This document shows, piece after piece, positions 22,904 through 31,507 of a stretch of DNA of 32,322 bases (the stretch's first letter is position 1; every line of letters starts with the position of its first letter). Made by a program: the position numbers and the translations under genes. Source of the DNA: an uncultured Anderseniella sp. (lineage in GTDB: Bacteria; Pseudomonadota; Alphaproteobacteria; Rhizobiales; Aestuariivirgaceae); contig CALHUA010000026.1 in assembly GCA_938039915.1 (NCBI GenBank), positions 1-32,322 on the forward strand, in the 5' to 3' direction. The notes under the pieces were generated by a model that saw only the letters and a program-made list of their open reading frames with translations, was not told the DNA's origin and made no database searches.

Positions 22904-23488
22904 TCAAAAATCACGTTCACGATGGTTCAGGCTGTCAGGTGTGTCAAAATCCCGTAATACCGCGTCGCTGTCCACGTCGATCATGCGCACATTGTCCCCG
23001 CTCAATAAGCTGCGCGCGCCCTTGTCACCGCTGGTTCTCTCAAGTTCGGCAAAATTCCCTCTGCCCAAAATCACCGGATTGCCGCGCACGCCTTTGTGGT
23101 GCGGAACGACAATACAGTCCTCACCGGTAAACGCATCCAGCAACTGATTGATGGTTTCAGCGGACACATCCGGCATGTCCCCGAGCAGGATCATTGCGCC
23201 TGCGCAACTGTGTGGCAAAACCGTAATGCCGGTTTTCAGTGATCCCGCCTGCCCAGCCGCATACTCTGCATTGTGGGCGAAAACGACATCAAGCCCGCAG
23301 AGCGCTTCCTGAACCGCGTCAGCGTCATGGCCGGTTACAACAATGACCGGGTCGAGGTCTGTGGCCAGTGCAGCTTCAGCAACGCTGCGCACCATCGGTT
23401 GGCCGCCATACTCCGCCAGCAATTTGTTGGCCGCACCAAAGCGTGCCGATGTCCCGGCTGCCAGGACCACGCCGGCCAACCGGCTCAC
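22904..23488 (-). CDS. MocA-like molybdenum cofactor nucleotidyltransferase
   Basis: A 194-aa NTP-transferase of the MobA/MocA type, predicted to attach CMP (MocA-like) to the molybdenum cofactor, as molybdenum hydroxylases of this kind need the cytosine dinucleotide form. The signature LAAGTSARFGAANKLL (9-24) provides the phosphate loop and the lysine. LLGDMPDVS holds the metal-binding Asp, and GVRGNPVILGRGNFAELERTSGDKGARSLL is the conserved C-terminal part. The ATG overlaps the stop of the MoeA-like gene (4 bp), so they are coupled. MocA rather than MobA is inferred from the cox context. Confidence 0.85.
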   Translation of the reverse strand: MSRLAGVVLAAGTSARFGAANKLLAEYGGQPMVRSVAEAALATDLDPVIVVTGHDADAVQEALCGLDVVFAHNAEYAAGQAGSLKTGITVLPHSCAGAMILLGDMPDVSAETINQLLDAFTGEDCIVVPHHKGVRGNPVILGRGNFAELERTSGDKGARSLLSGDNVRMIDVDSDAVLRDFDTPDSLNHRERDF

Positions 23489-24492
23489 CGGCCTGCCTCG
23501 CGCGGTGACGGCCTGGTTTCAATTTCCATCAGCAGCCCGCCTGCCCCCATATCCATGATATCCTGAGGTCGCACATCAATTCCTGCCAACACCCGGCCCA
23601 GCACCCAGTCAAACCCGTTCAGTTTCGGCGATCGGGCACACGATGGCACTCCGATGACCGCTTCGCCGTCAAGCGTGCCAAGCAACAGCAGGTTACCCGG
23701 ATCAACAGGCATCCCCAGATGCACGATTTGCCCGCCGGCCGCTTTCAGGCCCGCCGGCACCACATCGCCGCGGTCGACGATGGCCGATGCCCCGAACACC
23801 AGCACCGGATCATGACCTGACGCCTTCAACTGACGGATCCCGTCAGACACGCCGTCAATTGTATGCGCAACTTCAACCACATCGCCCAGTGTGCTGCCAT
23901 GGAGCTCGAGCCGGTCACGAATGACCGTCGCCGATTTTTCCAGCAAGGTTTCCTTCATGCCGGCGGTGCGGGTCAAGACCAGACCGGCCTTGTGCGGCTT
24001 GAAGGGGACAACCGACAACAGTGTACCGGATTCGGTCAGTTCCACTGCCTCATCGACGATACTCGCCGGTGCAGAAAACGGAATGATCTTGACGGTGGCC
24101 ACCATCTGCCCCGCCTTGACGGCTTGAAATGGCGTCAGCGTCGCCAGCGTCACGGCCTCATGCAGCCGATTGAGTGCCCGCACCAGGCCTGCATCCACCA
24201 GCACAATGCCGTCATGGGCAGAGTGGATATTGGCCCGCCCGGTGGCGGCCTGCTGCCGGGTAACACCGTCGCCGCACACCGCATCCGCCAGGCGCGCAGC
24301 GGCTGCATCTTCATGGACATCGCTTGCCTCGACACGCGCAGCAAACACAGTTGCAACGCCGGCCTTTTTCAACTCCGCAACATCCGCTGCAGAAAGAACC
24401 CTGCCCTTCTTGAAGCTGATGCCGTCAGTGCGTACCGAATGGGCAAGAATGGCGCCTTGAGCCAGGGTTACCTCGATTTCGCCGAATGTCAT
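23485..24492 (-). CDS. MoeA/CinA-like molybdopterin-binding protein
   Basis: A 335-aa protein with a MoCF_biosynth (molybdopterin-binding) domain in the C-terminal half: VLVFGASAIVDRGDVVPAGLKAAGG and GTLDGEAVIGVPSCARSPKLNGFDWVLGRVLAG. The N-terminal half (GAILAHSVRTDGISFKKGRVLSAADVAELKKAGV) resembles the MoeA-N region. In many alphaproteobacteria the same protein is fused to the MocA-like transferase; here they are separate with overlapping genes. It overlaps the upstream XdhC gene by 4 bp. The expected role is in molybdenum-cofactor maturation or delivery for the cox enzyme. The exact reaction is unknown. Confidence 0.84.
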   Translation of the reverse strand: MTFGEIEVTLAQGAILAHSVRTDGISFKKGRVLSAADVAELKKAGVATVFAARVEASDVHEDAAAARLADAVCGDGVTRQQAATGRANIHSAHDGIVLVDAGLVRALNRLHEAVTLATLTPFQAVKAGQMVATVKIIPFSAPASIVDEAVELTESGTLLSVVPFKPHKAGLVLTRTAGMKETLLEKSATVIRDRLELHGSTLGDVVEVAHTIDGVSDGIRQLKASGHDPVLVFGASAIVDRGDVVPAGLKAAGGQIVHLGMPVDPGNLLLLGTLDGEAVIGVPSCARSPKLNGFDWVLGRVLAGIDVRPQDIMDMGAGGLLMEIETRPSPREAGR

Positions 24493-25166
24493 GTATCCAG
24501 GCCCAGTCGAAGTGCTTTTGTCATCTCCGCCATGATGGCAATGGCAATTTCCGGCGCACCGCGCGCGCCGATGTCCAGACCAACGGGACCGCAGATGCGC
24601 GACGGTTCGACACCTGCCTGTTTCAGCCTCTCGGTTCGCGCCGTCTGGGTGCGCCTGGACCCCAGCGCACCAATGTAAAAACAGTCACTTTGAAGTGCCG
24701 CAACCAGGGCCGGATCATCCACTTTCGGATCATGGGTAAGCGCCAGAAATCCGGTGCGTGCATCAAGGCCTATTTCGGGCAACACTTCGTCTGGCCAATC
24801 TGCGTGAAGTGCAACACCGGGAAATCTGTCTTCCGTCGCAAATGCCCCGCGTGGATCGATCACTGTGATATCATAGCCTGCCGCTTTCGCCATCGGCACG
24901 ATTGCCTGGGCAATATGGACCGCCCCAACAATCACGAGCCGCAGGGCGGGATTGTGAATATGGATGAAGAACTCGGCAGTGTCCGTTGAAACGACTCCTG
25001 ATTTGTCAAACCGGAACCCGTTTTCCAGGGCATCCGCCAACGCATGCTCATCCGCATAACGCTGGGCCACCACCTCCTGTGCACCGGAGGCAATATCGGT
25101 CACTACCGCCACGGCCAGCCGGTCGGCGCGCGCCTTCTGCAATGTTTCAAGAACTGAAATATCCAT
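24489..25166 (-). CDS. XdhC/CoxF-like protein with Rossmann C-terminal domain
   Basis: A 225-aa XdhC-family protein. These bind the sulfurated Mo cofactor and load it into molybdenum hydroxylases. The C-terminal Rossmann domain is clear (LVIVGAVHIAQAIVPMAKAAGYDITVIDPR, FLALTHDPKVDDPAL, YIGALGSRRTQTAR, GLDIGARGAPEIAIAIMAEM). The N-terminal 80 residues are only weakly like the XdhC-N domain; that conserved part is supplied by the separate gene just upstream. It lies 7 bp after that gene and overlaps the next, a continuous operon. The split into two proteins is common in form II cox clusters. Confidence 0.88.
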   Translation of the reverse strand: MDISVLETLQKARADRLAVAVVTDIASGAQEVVAQRYADEHALADALENGFRFDKSGVVSTDTAEFFIHIHNPALRLVIVGAVHIAQAIVPMAKAAGYDITVIDPRGAFATEDRFPGVALHADWPDEVLPEIGLDARTGFLALTHDPKVDDPALVAALQSDCFYIGALGSRRTQTARTERLKQAGVEPSRICGPVGLDIGARGAPEIAIAIMAEMTKALRLGLDT

Positions 25167-25173
25167 TGGTGTT

Positions 25174-25503
25174 TCAGGCTCCGGTTACGGGCTCGACATA
25201 GACCCTGATCTTGCCGCCGCACGCCAATCCGACTTCCCATGCGGTTTCATCCGCCACGCCGAAGGCCAGAACCTTGCCTTTACCGGTTTCAATGGCGTCC
25301 TGCGCCTCGGTCACAACGGCTCCTTCAACGCAGCCGCCGGATACGGAGCCTTCAAAATTGCCGTCGCCGTCGATGACCAGTTGCGAGCCGACCGGTTGCG
25401 GAGCGGACCCCCAGGTCTCGATGACCGTGGCCAGCGCCACTTTGCGGCCTTCGCGGACCCAGCTATTGGCCGTATTCAACAGGTTTGCATCATTGCTGCT
25501 CAT
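25174..25503 (-). CDS. XdhC N-terminal domain (CoxI-type) protein
   Basis: A 109-aa protein that is only the XdhC/CoxI N-terminal domain: KVALATVIETWGSAPQPVGSQLVIDGDGNFEGSVSGGCVEGAVV, with GSAP and GSVSGGCVE as the defining motifs and the cysteine likely to contact the Mo cofactor, then GKIRVYVEPV. It starts at an ATG that overlaps the coxE stop by 4 bp, and a second XdhC gene with the Rossmann half follows. Together the two amount to one full-length XdhC. Its role in cofactor sulfuration or insertion is by family analogy. Confidence 0.88.
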   Translation of the reverse strand: MSSNDANLLNTANSWVREGRKVALATVIETWGSAPQPVGSQLVIDGDGNFEGSVSGGCVEGAVVTEAQDAIETGKGKVLAFGVADETAWEVGLACGGKIRVYVEPVTGA

Positions 25504-26777
25504 GGTCTCACCTCATCCGTTTTCCGCGGATCAACCGCTGTGCCATCAAGCCATCGTTGCGGATCATGGGTTTCATTGCGCGAACCTGACAGGACTTCGG
25601 CCAGATCAGCAAGTGTATTCAATGAATGGCAGGGCCGGAACTCGTCCACATGGGGCATGATTGCCTTGATTCCGCTGGCGCGCGCTTCAAATCCACCATA
25701 GCGCAAAAGCGGATTGAGCCAGACAATTCGTTTGGCAGAGCGCGCCAGCCGCGCCATTTCCGCCTCCAGCAGGTCGACATCATCGCGGTCCAGTCCGTCC
25801 GTCATCATCAGCACGTGGGCGCCCTGGGCCAGAACCCGGCGCGCCCACTTCCGGTTGAACTCACGCAAGGTGTGGCCGATGCGGGTGCCGCCGGACCAGT
25901 CATCAACATGGCTGCCGACCAGCTCCATGGCTTCATCCACATCCCGGCGTTTCAGCTCACGGGTGATATTGGTCAGCCGCGTACCGAACACGAACACCTG
26001 GACCCGTGACCGGTCATTGGTCAGGGCATGCAGAAAATGCAGAAACACACGCGAATAGTTCGCCATGGATCCGGAAATATCCAGCAACACGACCAAAGGC
26101 GGCTCGCGCGTCTGGCGGGCCTTGTGGGCCAGAGACGTCATATTGCCCCCTGCCCGTAGTGACCGGCGTATGGTGGCACGCATATCCACCACGCCCTGGC
26201 GGGAAGGTTTGAACCGCCGCATCTTCACTTCCAGCCGGTTCATGCGCATGCGGGCAATGGCGGCACGGGCGATACGCTCTTCATCCGCACTCATCTGCTC
26301 AAAGTCCTTGTTGCGCATCACCTCGCGCGCTGACGAGGTAAACTCGCCTTCAAGTTCAACCTCGTCCGAAGGGCGTTCGCGTTGAGATTGCGCGTCGTCC
26401 TGATTGAAAAGGGCTTCTGCCAGCCGTTTGTTGCCGGCCTTCTTTTTCGCCGGTGCGGTTTCCACGCGGACCTGCTGAAACAACAACTGCATCAGTTGCT
26501 CAACCATTTGCGGCTTGCGCCAGAACACTTCGAACGCATGATCAAACAGCGTTGTGTGCTCATGCCGTTTCACGAACACCGAGTGCATGATCCAGTAGAA
26601 ATCGGTCTTGCTCGCCATGCCGCCACCGCGAACCGCCTCGAGTGCATCGAGCACGGCGCCGGGCCCGACCGGCAGGCCGGTGTCGCGCAACACCCGGGCG
26701 AAATGCATGATGTTGTCCGGCAGATGACCTGTTGGAGGCGGCTTGTTGGAATTGGCTGCTGTCGGCTGCATCGCCAT
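25500..26777 (-). CDS. coxE: CoxE-like VWA-domain protein
   Basis: A 425-aa VWA-domain protein of the CoxE family. With the MoxR ATPase CoxD it is needed to mature the active site of CO-dehydrogenase-type enzymes. The VWA MIDAS motif DISGS is at 233-237 (VLLDISGSMANYSRV), with the later SGGTRIGHTLREF and MMTDGLDRDD. The N-terminal half contains the CoxE helical region (FARVLRDTGLPVGPGAVLDALEAV) and a charged linker at about 105-150. It follows the coxD stop by 5 bp and overlaps the next gene by 4 bp. MoxR-VWA pairs are a standard chaperone pairing. Confidence 0.93.
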   Translation of the reverse strand: MAMQPTAANSNKPPPTGHLPDNIMHFARVLRDTGLPVGPGAVLDALEAVRGGGMASKTDFYWIMHSVFVKRHEHTTLFDHAFEVFWRKPQMVEQLMQLLFQQVRVETAPAKKKAGNKRLAEALFNQDDAQSQRERPSDEVELEGEFTSSAREVMRNKDFEQMSADEERIARAAIARMRMNRLEVKMRRFKPSRQGVVDMRATIRRSLRAGGNMTSLAHKARQTREPPLVVLLDISGSMANYSRVFLHFLHALTNDRSRVQVFVFGTRLTNITRELKRRDVDEAMELVGSHVDDWSGGTRIGHTLREFNRKWARRVLAQGAHVLMMTDGLDRDDVDLLEAEMARLARSAKRIVWLNPLLRYGGFEARASGIKAIMPHVDEFRPCHSLNTLADLAEVLSGSRNETHDPQRWLDGTAVDPRKTDEVRP

Positions 26778-26782
26778 CAGGA

Positions 26783-27706
26783 CTACTCGGCAGCGCGCAA
26801 GCGGATATCGGACTGTATCTGGTCAACCAGCCGCTTGGCTTCAGACCCCTCCATGCGGGCGATGTCATCCTGATATTTCAGCAGTACACCAAGCGTGTCG
26901 TTCACTGTCGCCGGGTCCAGGGCGATGGCATTCAGTTCGTTCAACGCCCCAACCCAGTCCAGGGTCTCAGCAACACCAGGTGACTTGAAAAGGTCCTGGC
27001 CACGCAATGCCTGGATGAAACCGACAACTTCCTGGGCCAGATCATCACCGACGCCGGGCTTGCGCGCCTTGATGATGGCAAGTTCACGCTCGGCCGAGGG
27101 ATATCCGACCCAGTGATACAGGCAGCGCCGCTTAAGCGCATCATGCACTTCGCGGGTGCGATTGGAGGTTACGATGACGATCGGCGGCTCAGCAGCCTTC
27201 ACCGTGCCAATTTCGGGAATGGTGATCTGATAGTCTGACAGCACTTCCAGCAAGAAGGCTTCGAACGCCTCGTCTGTCCGGTCAAGTTCATCGATCAACA
27301 GAACGGGCGGGCCGCTCTTGTGAGGCTCAAGTGCCTGCAGCAACGGCCGCTTGATCAGGAAGCGGTCGGAAAAAATATCCGACTGCAGCCGGTCACGGTC
27401 ATCGACACCTTCTGCTTCGGCCATGCGGATCTCGATCATCTGCGCCGAGTAATTCCACTCATAAACGGCTGCAGCCAGATCAAGGCCTTCATAGCACTGC
27501 AACCGGATCAGGTCGCGGCCGAGCACGGAGCTCAGCACCTTGGCAATTTCCGTCTTGCCGACACCTGCTTCGCCTTCCAGAAACAAAGGCCTGCCCATTT
27601 TCAATGCCAGATAAACCACCGTCGACAGCGGCCGGTCTGCCAGGTAACCGTCGTTGGACAAGAGTTCCTGTGTGGCATCAATGGAGGAAGGCAGTGGTTT
27701 GGGCAT
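26783..27706 (-). CDS. coxD: CoxD-like MoxR-family AAA+ ATPase
   Basis: A 307-aa MoxR-type AAA+ ATPase. Walker A is GEAGVGKT (45-52), Walker B LLIDELD (136-142), sensor 1 IVTSNRTRE, and the arginine-rich RRCLYHWVGYP follows. CoxD of Oligotropha is known to be required for [CuSMoO2] assembly; since the large subunit here lacks the copper ligand, its task here is likely to be general activation. It is the first gene after the terminator that follows coxM, so it is either expressed by read-through or from its own promoter near 27710-27730. coxE follows at 5 bp. Confidence 0.93.
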   Translation of the reverse strand: MPKPLPSSIDATQELLSNDGYLADRPLSTVVYLALKMGRPLFLEGEAGVGKTEIAKVLSSVLGRDLIRLQCYEGLDLAAAVYEWNYSAQMIEIRMAEAEGVDDRDRLQSDIFSDRFLIKRPLLQALEPHKSGPPVLLIDELDRTDEAFEAFLLEVLSDYQITIPEIGTVKAAEPPIVIVTSNRTREVHDALKRRCLYHWVGYPSAERELAIIKARKPGVGDDLAQEVVGFIQALRGQDLFKSPGVAETLDWVGALNELNAIALDPATVNDTLGVLLKYQDDIARMEGSEAKRLVDQIQSDIRLRAAE

Positions 27707-27730
27707 ACGTTCGCTCAGCTTGTGTTGTTC

Positions 27731-27765
27731 TAAAAAAATAGTCCGCGAGCAAGATACCCGCGGAC
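27731..27765 (-). terminator. Intrinsic terminator between coxM and coxD
   Basis: On the minus strand GTCCGCG-GGTATCTTGCT-CGCGGAC is followed by TATTTTTTTA: a 7-bp GC-rich stem with a U tract. It lies 23 bp after the coxM stop and 25 bp before the coxD start, so it separates the structural genes from the accessory genes. Confidence 0.82.
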
Positions 27766-27787
27766 CGGTGTTGATACGGGGTTTGGC

Positions 27788-28582
27788 CTACTTGGCGGCA
27801 GCAATTGCCCGTTTGGCCATCACGCCCACAAGGTGTGCACGATACTCGGCGGACGCATGAATGTCCTCGTTCATGTCGTCAGCCTTGATTTTCACCTTGG
27901 CGATCGCATCGGCGGAGAAGTCTGCCGTCAGTGCCTTTTCCATGGCCTTTTCCCGGTAGGCAGAGCCTTTCGCGCCGGTTACTCCAACGCGAACACCCTT
28001 CTTGCCGAAATCTGCCACGAAGACACCAACCATGGCATAGCGTGATGCCGGGTTCGGGAACTTCGAGTAGGCAGACCGTGCCGGAATTTCAAACTCGATC
28101 TGCTTTATGATCTCGTTCGTCCGTAAGGCAGTTTCAAACAAAGACTTGAAGAACTTGTCCGCTTCAATTGTACGGCTGTCCGTAACCACTTTGGCATTCA
28201 GCGCCAACAAAGCTGACGGATAGTCCGCCGCCGGGTCGGCATTGGCGACCGAACCCCCAATGGTGCCCTTGTGGCGCACATGCGGATCTCCGATCATGCC
28301 GGCCAGTGCGGCAAGCGCAGGCACAGCCTTCTTCAGGTCAGAACTGGAAGCGACCTCCGCATGGGTGGTGCCCGCCTTGATGGTGACCTTGGTCTTGGTC
28401 ACGCTCACACCTGAATTGCCCAGGCCTGAAAGGTCGATCACGTCGGTTGGCGAAGCCAGTCGCTGTTTCATGGTTGGGATAAGCGTCATGCCCCCCGCCA
28501 TCAGCTTGCCTTCCTTCTTCGACTTGATCAGCTTGACCGCATCCGCCAGCTTCTTGGGACGGTGATATTCAAATTCATACAT
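27788..28582 (-). CDS. coxM: CoxM-like FAD-binding subunit of molybdenum hydroxylase
   Basis: A 264-aa medium subunit that binds FAD and passes electrons from the Fe-S subunit onwards. The two FAD loops are AGGMT (29-33, LMAGGMTLIPTMKQRL) and TIGGSVANADPAAD (107-120). The N-terminus FEYHRPKKLADAVKLI and the C-terminal CO_deh_flav_C region (VGVTGAKGSAYREKAMEKAL) are typical. GGAG lies 8 bases before the ATG. Third in the S-L-M order, 23 bp after coxL. A terminator follows the stop. Subunit identity is secure; the substrate is that of the complex. Confidence 0.93.
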   Translation of the reverse strand: MYEFEYHRPKKLADAVKLIKSKKEGKLMAGGMTLIPTMKQRLASPTDVIDLSGLGNSGVSVTKTKVTIKAGTTHAEVASSSDLKKAVPALAALAGMIGDPHVRHKGTIGGSVANADPAADYPSALLALNAKVVTDSRTIEADKFFKSLFETALRTNEIIKQIEFEIPARSAYSKFPNPASRYAMVGVFVADFGKKGVRVGVTGAKGSAYREKAMEKALTADFSADAIAKVKIKADDMNEDIHASAEYRAHLVGVMAKRAIAAAK

Positions 28583-28605: not shown

Positions 28606-30969
28606 TTATTCAGCCGCTTCGCGCAGATGCGCCATGGCGTTCCAGACATTTTGCGGTGTAGCCGGCATTGGCACGTCCTTGACGCCCAGTGCGCTGGTCA
28701 GTGCATTCATCACCGCAGCAGGTGCCGCAATCGCACCGGCCTCGCCACAACCCTTGATACCCAGCGGGTTCGACGGGCACTCGGTCTTGGTAAAGCCCAG
28801 CTTGAACGACGGCAGATTGTCAGCCCGTGGCATGCAATAGTCCATGTACGATCCAGTCAGAAGCTGACCGCCTTCATCATAGACAACAGCTTCGGTCAGT
28901 GCCTGACCGATACCCTGCGCAATGCCACCGTGCACCTGACCTTCGACAATCATCGGATTGATGACATTGCCGAAATCATCCACGGCCACCCAGTCGACGA
29001 TCTCGGTCACGCCGGTATCTGCATCGACTTCCAGTTCGCAGATATGACAACCGGCCGGGAACGTAAAGTTGGTCGGATCGTGGAAAGCGCCTTCCTTGAG
29101 ACCCGGCTCGATTTCCGAGGTCGGGAACTTGTGCGCCACATAGGCAGACAGCGCAACTTCGCCGAATGCCATCTTCTTGTCGGTGCCTTTGACCGAGAAG
29201 CTGCCATCCTTGAATTCGACATCACTCTCGGATGCTTCCATGACGTGAGCAGCCACCTTCTTCGCCTTGGCCTCGATCTTGTCGAGCGCCTTGGAAATAG
29301 CCGTCATGCCGACCGCACCCGAGCGCGACCCGTAGGTGCCCATGCCGAACTGAACCTTGTCGGTATCGCCATGAACGATAGCCACCTGATCGGCCGGAAT
29401 GCCAAGCCGGTCCGATACGAGCTGTGCAAAGGTCGTCTCGTGACCCTGGCCGTGACTGTGCGATCCGGTGAGGATCTCAACTGTGCCAACCGGGTTCACG
29501 CGGACTTCAGCCGACTCCCACAACCCGACGCCGGCACCCAGTGAACCAACCGCGGCCGACGGCGCAATACCGCATGCTTCAATATAGTTGGAGAACCCGA
29601 TGCCGCGCAGCTTGCCTTTGCGGGCCGAGGCGGCCTTGCGCTTTTCAAAGCCGGCATAATCGATCATCTCCATCGCCTTTTTCTGCGATGCGCCGTAATC
29701 GCCTGCGTCATAACACATGATGACAGGTGTCTGATGCGGGAACGAATTGACGAAATTCTTCGCCCGGAAGTCTGCCGGATCCATGCCCAGTTCGCGAGCC
29801 GCTGTTTCCATCAGCCGCTCCACGACATAGGTCGCTTCCGGCCTGCCGGCACCGCGATAGGCGTCCACGGGGGAGGTGTTGGTATAAACCGCATCCACCT
29901 CGGCATAGATGGCGGGAATATTATACTGGCCCGACAACAGCGTTGCATAAAGATAGGTCGGCACGGAAGACGCAAACGTCGACAGATATGCCCCCATATT
30001 GGCAATTGTCTTGGCACGCAGACCGGTGATTCTGCCATTGCTGTCGGTTGCCAGTTCCGCCTTGGTCACGTGGTCGCGGCCATTGGCATCGGTCAGGAAA
30101 GCTTCCGAACGGTCAGCCACCCATTTGACCGGCACGCCGCCGGCACGTTTCGACGCCCACAGGCACACAACCTCTTCGGCATAGATGAAAATCTTGGAAC
30201 CGAAACCACCGCCCACATCCGGCGCGATCACGCGCAGCTTGTGCTCAGGCGCCAGCCCTACGAATGCCGAGATGACAAGCCGGGCCACATGCGGGTTCTG
30301 GCTGGTGGTGTAGAGCGTGTAGTGATCTTCGCCCTCATCATACGAACCGATCGCAGCACGCGGCTCCATGGCATTCGGTGCCAGCCGGTTATTGACCAGA
30401 TCAAGGCTGGTTATGTGGGCTGCGCTGGCGAAGGCGGCCTCGGTTGCGGCCTTGTCGCCAAGCTCCCATTCAAACACGGTGTTCTTTGAAGCAACGTCAT
30501 GTACCTGCGGCGTGCCACGTTTTTGCGAAGCCACGGGATCGACATTGGCGTCCAGCACCTTGTACGTGACATTGATCATTTCGGCTGCGGCTTTTGCCTG
30601 CGCCATGGTATGGGCCACGACAACCGCCACCTGATCACCCACATGACGAACCTTGCCTTGCGCCAGCACCGGATGCGGCCCCGCCTTCATCGGCGAGCCG
30701 TCCTTGGAATGGATCATCCAGCCGCAAATGACACCGCCGATATTGTCGGCTGCGGCATCCTCGCCAGTCAGCACGCACAAGACACCCGGTGCCTTCTCGG
30801 CCTTCTTGATGTCGATCTTCTTGATCTCTGCGTGTGCATGGGGTGAGCGCAGGAAATATCCAACTGCCTGGCCCGGCAGGTTTATGTCGTCGGTATACCG
30901 GCCCTTGCCGGTGATGAAGCGGTGATCTTCCTTGCGCAGCATGCGTGCGCCAATGCCTGTATCACTCAT
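28606..30969 (-). CDS. coxL: CoxL-like form II molybdenum hydroxylase large subunit
   Basis: A 787-aa Mo-binding catalytic subunit. The diagnostic loop at 370-376 is AYRGAGR, the form II signature; true CO dehydrogenases (form I) carry AYRCSFR, whose cysteine binds copper. The catalytic glutamate is E743 (GIKGCGEAGAIAAP). Other cofactor stretches are GGGFGSK (253-259) and GSHSHGQGHETTFAQL. The N-terminus GARMLRKEDHRFITGKGRYTDDI is standard. Form II enzymes have unsettled or varied substrates, so CO oxidation should not be assumed. Second gene after coxS (73-bp gap with AGAGGA), followed by coxM. Confidence 0.95.
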   Translation of the reverse strand: MSDTGIGARMLRKEDHRFITGKGRYTDDINLPGQAVGYFLRSPHAHAEIKKIDIKKAEKAPGVLCVLTGEDAAADNIGGVICGWMIHSKDGSPMKAGPHPVLAQGKVRHVGDQVAVVVAHTMAQAKAAAEMINVTYKVLDANVDPVASQKRGTPQVHDVASKNTVFEWELGDKAATEAAFASAAHITSLDLVNNRLAPNAMEPRAAIGSYDEGEDHYTLYTTSQNPHVARLVISAFVGLAPEHKLRVIAPDVGGGFGSKIFIYAEEVVCLWASKRAGGVPVKWVADRSEAFLTDANGRDHVTKAELATDSNGRITGLRAKTIANMGAYLSTFASSVPTYLYATLLSGQYNIPAIYAEVDAVYTNTSPVDAYRGAGRPEATYVVERLMETAARELGMDPADFRAKNFVNSFPHQTPVIMCYDAGDYGASQKKAMEMIDYAGFEKRKAASARKGKLRGIGFSNYIEACGIAPSAAVGSLGAGVGLWESAEVRVNPVGTVEILTGSHSHGQGHETTFAQLVSDRLGIPADQVAIVHGDTDKVQFGMGTYGSRSGAVGMTAISKALDKIEAKAKKVAAHVMEASESDVEFKDGSFSVKGTDKKMAFGEVALSAYVAHKFPTSEIEPGLKEGAFHDPTNFTFPAGCHICELEVDADTGVTEIVDWVAVDDFGNVINPMIVEGQVHGGIAQGIGQALTEAVVYDEGGQLLTGSYMDYCMPRADNLPSFKLGFTKTECPSNPLGIKGCGEAGAIAAPAAVMNALTSALGVKDVPMPATPQNVWNAMAHLREAAE

Positions 30970-31042
30970 TTGATTTTTGTTTCCTCTAATTCGGTAACAT
31001 GTTCCAACCCGGTCAGCGCCACGATAGGGCGACCGGTGCGCA

Positions 31043-31507
31043 TCACATCTTGGCAGCGCCTGCCTGGATGGCCTTGACGATGTTGTGATAGCCGGTACAG
31101 CGGCAGATATTGCCTTCCAGCTCTTCGCGAATGGTCTCTTCCTTGAGCTTCTTGCCCTTGCGCTTCACGATATCGATACCCGCCATGATCATGCCCGGTG
31201 TACAGAAACCGCATTGCAGACCGTGATGTTCGCGGAAGGCTTCCTGCATGGGATGCAGCTTGCCGTTGGTGGCAAGTCCCTCAACCGTGTTGACCGTTGC
31301 ACCGTCGCAGGCAACTGCCAGAGCCGTGCACGATTTAATGGCCTTGCCATCCACATGCACCACACAGGCACCACACTGGCTGGTATCGCAGCCTACATGG
31401 GTACCCGTTTTTCCAAGATTACCGCGGATGAAATCGACAAGAAGTGTGCGGCCTTCCACGTCACCACAGACTTTTTCGCCGTTCACCGTCATTGATATTG
31501 CCGGCAT
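31043..31507 (-). CDS. coxS: CoxS-like [2Fe-2S] subunit of molybdenum hydroxylase
   Basis: A 154-aa small subunit carrying two [2Fe-2S] clusters. The plant-type cluster cysteines are C40, C45, C48 and C60 ([13 protein letters not shown]...KSC); the second set, C99, C102, C135 and C137 (QCGFCTPG...NICRCTGY), is complete. It transfers electrons from the Mo site to FAD. It is the first gene of the set, which has the S-L-M order typical of form II (form I is M-S-L). GGGAGG lies 6 bases before the ATG. The promoter must lie in the 169-bp region shared with the divergent DUF4864 gene. Confidence 0.95.

Follow-up and report, generated by a model that had tools for sequence, protein, structure and literature searches.

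A probable intrinsic terminator between the structural and maturation genes of form II CODH-like clusters in Aestuariivirga and relatives

Intrinsic terminators located inside operons have been described for clostridial ABC importers. There, they follow the genes for the substrate-binding proteins, and termination was measured at 20.7-96.1% (PMC9045158). These terminators have U-poor tails, and the hairpin additionally stabilises the upstream mRNA (PMC9045158). Among the cox clusters, that of Oligotropha carboxidovorans is predicted to contain several internal promoters, and its CoxD, an AAA+ ATPase, is predicted to take part in assembling the Cu-S-Mo centre (PMC2997495). Form II clusters are defined by the AYRGAGR motif together with the S-L-M gene order, and CO uptake is often absent in isolates which carry form II alone (PMC13203968). 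A literature search for terminators within cox clusters and for transcript maps of cox genes returned nothing direct, subscription papers lying outside this search.

The window analysed here, a stretch of 32,322 nucleotides from an uncultured Anderseniella sp., makes up the whole of contig C26 in the draft genome G000 (3.37 Mb, 78% complete). It contains a CODH-like cluster on the minus strand in the order coxS, coxL, coxM, coxD, coxE, XdhC-family ORFs, Pfam-less ORF and MocA-like gene:

31043..31507, minus strand: coxS-like gene, [2Fe-2S] subunit (Fer2, Fer2_2)
28606..30969, minus strand: coxL-like gene, molybdopterin subunit, with the AYRGAGR active-site motif at residue 370 (form II); below the NCBIfam CODH cut-offs
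27788..28582, minus strand: coxM-like gene, FAD subunit (FAD_binding_5), the final gene ahead of the terminator
26783..27706, minus strand: coxD-like gene, AAA+ ATPase (AAA_5), the first gene past the terminator, with its ATG at 27706
25500..26777, minus strand: coxE-like gene, VWA protein (VWA_CoxE, 1.3e-65)
24489..25503, minus strand: XdhC/CoxI family in two ORFs (XdhC_CoxI, XdhC_C), an N-terminal domain (25174-25503) and a Rossmann domain (24489-25166)
22904..24492, minus strand: Pfam-less ORF (23485-24492) and MocA-like NTP transferase (22904-23488)

The CoxL of the window carries AYRGAGR, not AYXCSFR, and reaches 656 bits against TIGR02416, whose cut-off is 991; it does not qualify as form I. 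The Cys of the AYXCSFR loop is absent from form II CoxL. With AYRGAGR and the S-L-M gene order, the cluster is form II CODH-like.

The arrangement of the accessory genes varies. In the genus of the window, the Pfam-less ORF and the MocA-like gene are separate ORFs that overlap; across most of the other genera in the family (e.g. L114, L118, L126), they share one stop and look fused. In most loci, the XdhC family protein comes as two ORFs, the N-terminal one and the Rossmann-domain one; at L143 (G051), a single frame with one stop covers both parts, which suggests a fused form.

Both flanks of the coxM-coxD gap lie on one strand, and the remaining junctions of the cluster in the window measure -4 to 73 nt. 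In the coding sense, the gap reads TAG-GCCAAACCCCGTATCAACACC-GGTCCGCGGGTA-TCT-TGCTCGCGGACT-ATTTTTTT-AGAACAACACAAGCTGAGCGAACGT-ATG and comprises the following elements:

27740..27766, minus strand: terminator hairpin with a 12-bp stem and a 3-nt loop, GGTCCGCGGGTATCTTGCTCGCGGACT (from folding, and from covariation and conservation in relatives)
27732..27739, minus strand: terminator U tract, ATTTTTTT (from the sequence and the T-rich tails of relatives)
27707..27731, minus strand: remainder of the coxD leader, 25 nt, with hardly any room for a promoter (from the sequence)

The stem, GGTCCGCGGGTA-TCT-TGCTCGCGGACT at 27766..27740, comprises 12 bp if G-U pairs are counted. It is followed in the coding sense by one A (27739) and then by seven T (27738..27732). 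A stable GC-rich stem-loop with a U tract directly 3' of it on the coding strand is present; these are the sequence features of an intrinsic terminator. The earlier note had placed such a hairpin and U tract between coxM and coxD, after the structural genes; both are found on the minus strand within 1-2 bases of the coordinates it gave, 3' of coxM (27788-28582) and 5' of coxD (26783-27706). The folding energy of the hairpin is -19.7 kcal/mol, whereas shuffles average -6.6 (z = -6.2), and none of 200 shuffles was as good. Within a 240-nt context, the pairing probabilities of the stem are 0.68-1.0 and the terminator fold is dominant. A loose consensus scan over 19 kb returned 17 terminator-like sites against 18.8 in shuffles; a consensus match alone is therefore no proof, which is supplied instead by conservation and covariation in relatives. 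Elsewhere in the window, at 14969-14932 on the minus strand, lies another strong terminator-like hairpin with 17 pairs and the tail CCTTTTCAGT.

Relatives of CoxD were sought in 69 genomes of the family, which includes Aestuariivirga sp. YIM B02566 (L033), and in 84,980 species genomes, and the cluster was read out at 43 loci. The 100 nt downstream of the stop of each gene were scanned with a strict test (-15 kcal/mol or lower, 9 or more pairs, no more than 2 unpaired stem bases and 4 or more T in the 8 nt after the stem). A looser detector had called 23% of shuffles positive and was discarded. As background, the strict test is passed by 7 out of 610 random coding windows, and by 0.3% of shuffles. 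The earlier note had named conservation of the hairpin in the form II clusters of relatives as a check, and the hairpin is indeed kept there, with compensatory changes: 30 of the 39 coxM-coxD junctions in the family pass and 9 fail, against 0/202 at the S-L, L-M, D-E, E-XdhC, XdhC-XdhC, XdhC-ORF and ORF-MocA junctions of the same clusters. A general feature of gene junctions can consequently be rejected. In particular, the strict test was negative at every junction from coxD through the MocA-like gene, and no clear end-of-cluster terminator was found within 150 nt 3' of the MocA gene.

In the family, the hairpin follows the coxM stop at a median distance of 21.5 nt (range 7-41). In 32 family members, 4-7 of the 8 nt in the T-rich tail are T, and on average 5.4 of the 8 nt 3' of the stem are T against 2.6 A in the 8 nt 5' of it, a comparison to be read with the detector's own requirement for at least 4 T. 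On the antisense strand of the coxM-coxD regions, the strict test was passed at 7 of 39 loci, against 30 in the sense direction. Together, the tail on the sense side and this strand difference point to termination of transcripts which arrive from coxM. In the window, one A precedes the T tract, and many relatives have an interrupted tract; a d'Aubenton-Carafa-type score gives +1.9 for the window and -52 to +47 across the family, so that the strength of the terminator is uncertain. Some coxM-coxD gaps contain extra sequence: 898 nt at L116 (G053), 4364 nt at L120 (G045) and 667 nt at L029 (G009). At L116, the terminator is still found 24 nt past coxM, with the extra sequence behind it.

Covariation of the stem was scored on an alignment of 20 sequences and 11 pairs. 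The stem sequences vary between genera while the pairing is kept, 97.7% of cells being paired; when the partner is slid by 1-3 columns, pairing falls to 27-48%. The 5' and 3' arms of the same locus give on average -19.1 kcal/mol, and swapped arms -12.3 kcal/mol. Changes on both sides occur at 7 of the 11 pairs, and double changes were counted in 27 cells, compared with 8.0 in shuffles; such counts are not probabilities because the aligned sequences are related and were picked for folding. The argument rests on the two-sided changes and on the zero at the other junctions.

Other identities of the element were considered and rejected. A dispersed or REP-like repeat is contradicted by the 81-bp gap, which matches its own place alone in the 3.37 Mb genome, and a riboswitch or other curated RNA family by the absence of an Rfam match in the window. 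As for a stock terminator cassette, the pattern CCGC...GCGG(A/G)C(C/T)NTTTT was matched 8 times, at 7 sites, in G000, 4 times in G042 and 3 times in G057 (control with the pattern read backwards: 0, 9 and 11, respectively); so few matches per genome do not indicate a mass-produced cassette.

Beyond the family, the strict test was passed after coxM at 13 of 58 loci, whereas all remaining genes together gave 4 of 462. The 3' end of coxM is still the favoured site there, though in a patchy manner, and the element was not found in the Bradyrhizobium-type clusters examined. Most relatives beyond the family lack the terminator, which is therefore dispensable for the operon. Within the family itself, form I coxMSL-D clusters were compared at loci which carry AYRCSFR (L150/L154, L152, L153, L155, L156, L157); between coxL and coxD they contain some weak hairpins, and none comparable with a T tract.

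The element is probably an intrinsic, Rho-independent terminator that acts with partial efficiency within one coxSLM-DE-XdhC-MocA operon. From the hairpin, the U tract, their position, conservation, covariation and direction, and the lack of room for a downstream promoter, all of which are shown here, we infer termination, its partial nature and the resulting protein ratio. RNA polymerase would start upstream of coxS and transcribe coxS, coxL and coxM. A fraction of the polymerases would stop at the hairpin and U tract and yield a coxSLM mRNA, and the remaining ones would read through into coxD-E-XdhC-MocA. The hairpin would, in addition, shield the 3' end of the coxSLM mRNA. As the outcome, the enzyme subunits would be made in excess over the putative maturation proteins.

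The earlier note had left the downstream genes to either read-through or a promoter of their own. The latter option implies a full terminator, with coxD onwards forming a second operon whose promoter overlaps the hairpin or lies just behind it, and we consider it unlikely. A distance of at least 60 nt separates hairpin and coxD in 14 of 32 family loci, which is room enough in those genomes. In the other 18, however, the coxD start lies 14-38 nt from the hairpin end (33 nt in the window, 25 of them after the T tract), and a promoter behind the hairpin hardly fits, though one overlapping it could. At several loci, the T tract even passes straight into a Shine-Dalgarno-like sequence and the ATG, e.g. 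TTTGTTTTGAAGGATCGTCATG and TTCGTTTCGAAGGAGTGACAATG. Between 40 nt before the hairpin and coxD, the best sigma70-like match is 7/12 in the window, below the scan threshold, and 5-9 elsewhere. Alphaproteobacterial promoters are predicted poorly, and such weak matches are not decisive. Intact coxD genes are found throughout the family, with at least 73% identity in the main set; coxD must therefore be expressed, and partial read-through offers the simplest route. Thus, read-through is favoured over a separate promoter, for which 18 of 32 loci leave little room.

A second alternative, to which we assign a low likelihood, is an mRNA stability element: the polymerase would continue past the hairpin, the transcript would be cut downstream by an endonuclease, and the hairpin would guard the coxSLM 3' end against exonucleases. 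The stable hairpin soon after a stop codon agrees with this, as 3'-end hairpins block 3'-5' exonucleases (PMC7509114), and both roles can coexist. Yet a pure stability element has no need of a T tract, and the T-rich tails are found on the sense side of the stem. A possible look of such an element is provided within the genus of the window. Here, the coxS-coxL gap (30970-31042 in the window, minus strand) measures 73 nt in four genomes (the window, L112, L113 and L145); in the rest of the family, it is mostly 11-30 nt long. Within the 73 nt lies a GC-rich hairpin (CCGGTCGCCCTATCGTGGCGCTGACCGG) that looks conserved and lacks a T tract, perhaps an mRNA stability or translation element.

Two conditional scenarios remain to be mentioned, both very improbable. 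In the first, a condition-dependent terminator would uncouple the form II enzyme from the AAA+/VWA machinery, so that read-through, and not promoter activity, would decide enzyme activation. Least likely of all is a conditional attenuator opened or by-passed on a signal such as Mo or substrate supply, with the maturation genes switched separately: conservation is lineage-restricted and all downstream genes lie behind the hairpin, but the ~20 nt between the coxM stop and the stem are too short for a sensing domain, the terminator fold dominates its 240-nt context and Rfam gives no match.

Codon adaptation was measured against ribosomal-protein genes, the reference for the window being taken from the same-genus genome G042. 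In the window, values of 0.73, 0.75, 0.69 and 0.69 were obtained for coxS, coxL, coxM and coxD, and of 0.64, 0.68, 0.58, 0.64 and 0.59 from coxE to the MocA-like gene. Six relatives with their own reference follow the same general direction: coxL exceeds coxE in all six, and coxD is intermediate or near coxM. The step from S-L-M to E-XdhC-MocA independently supports unequal expression, with the enzyme made in excess. It does not prove the role of the terminator, and codon bias cannot separate termination from translational control.

Form II clusters are common. The probable terminator is kept across the family at the boundary between enzyme and maturation genes, and the form I clusters of this family lack it. 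This suggests that, for form II, the proportion of enzyme to CoxD and CoxE matters. In practice, coxL expression seen in RNA-seq data should not be taken to mean that the maturation genes are expressed to the same level.

The kind of element is known and its mechanism ordinary; the site between coxM and coxD is newly noted. The form I coxMSL-DEF cluster of the O. carboxidovorans type (PMC2997495) shares the same kinds of genes, with the structural genes followed by coxD and coxE, but form I clusters of the present family lack the hairpin and T tract ahead of coxD. Hairpins of the puf operon type (PMC7509114) are likewise intercistronic within one operon and associated with unequal mRNA levels; unlike the coxM-coxD element, they act through decay and need no U tract. 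As in the clostridial ABC-importer operons (PMC9045158), where partial termination sets the ratio to the downstream genes, a hairpin with a T-rich tail stands right after one or more highly needed genes inside one operon, stems differ between loci and tails are often imperfect. The clostridial terminators concern other genes in another phylum, and termination was measured there while it is predicted from sequence here; in the present family, by contrast, one site is kept throughout, with covariation. By analogy with this shared anatomy, the coxM-coxD element most likely combines both effects, termination and stabilisation of the upstream mRNA.
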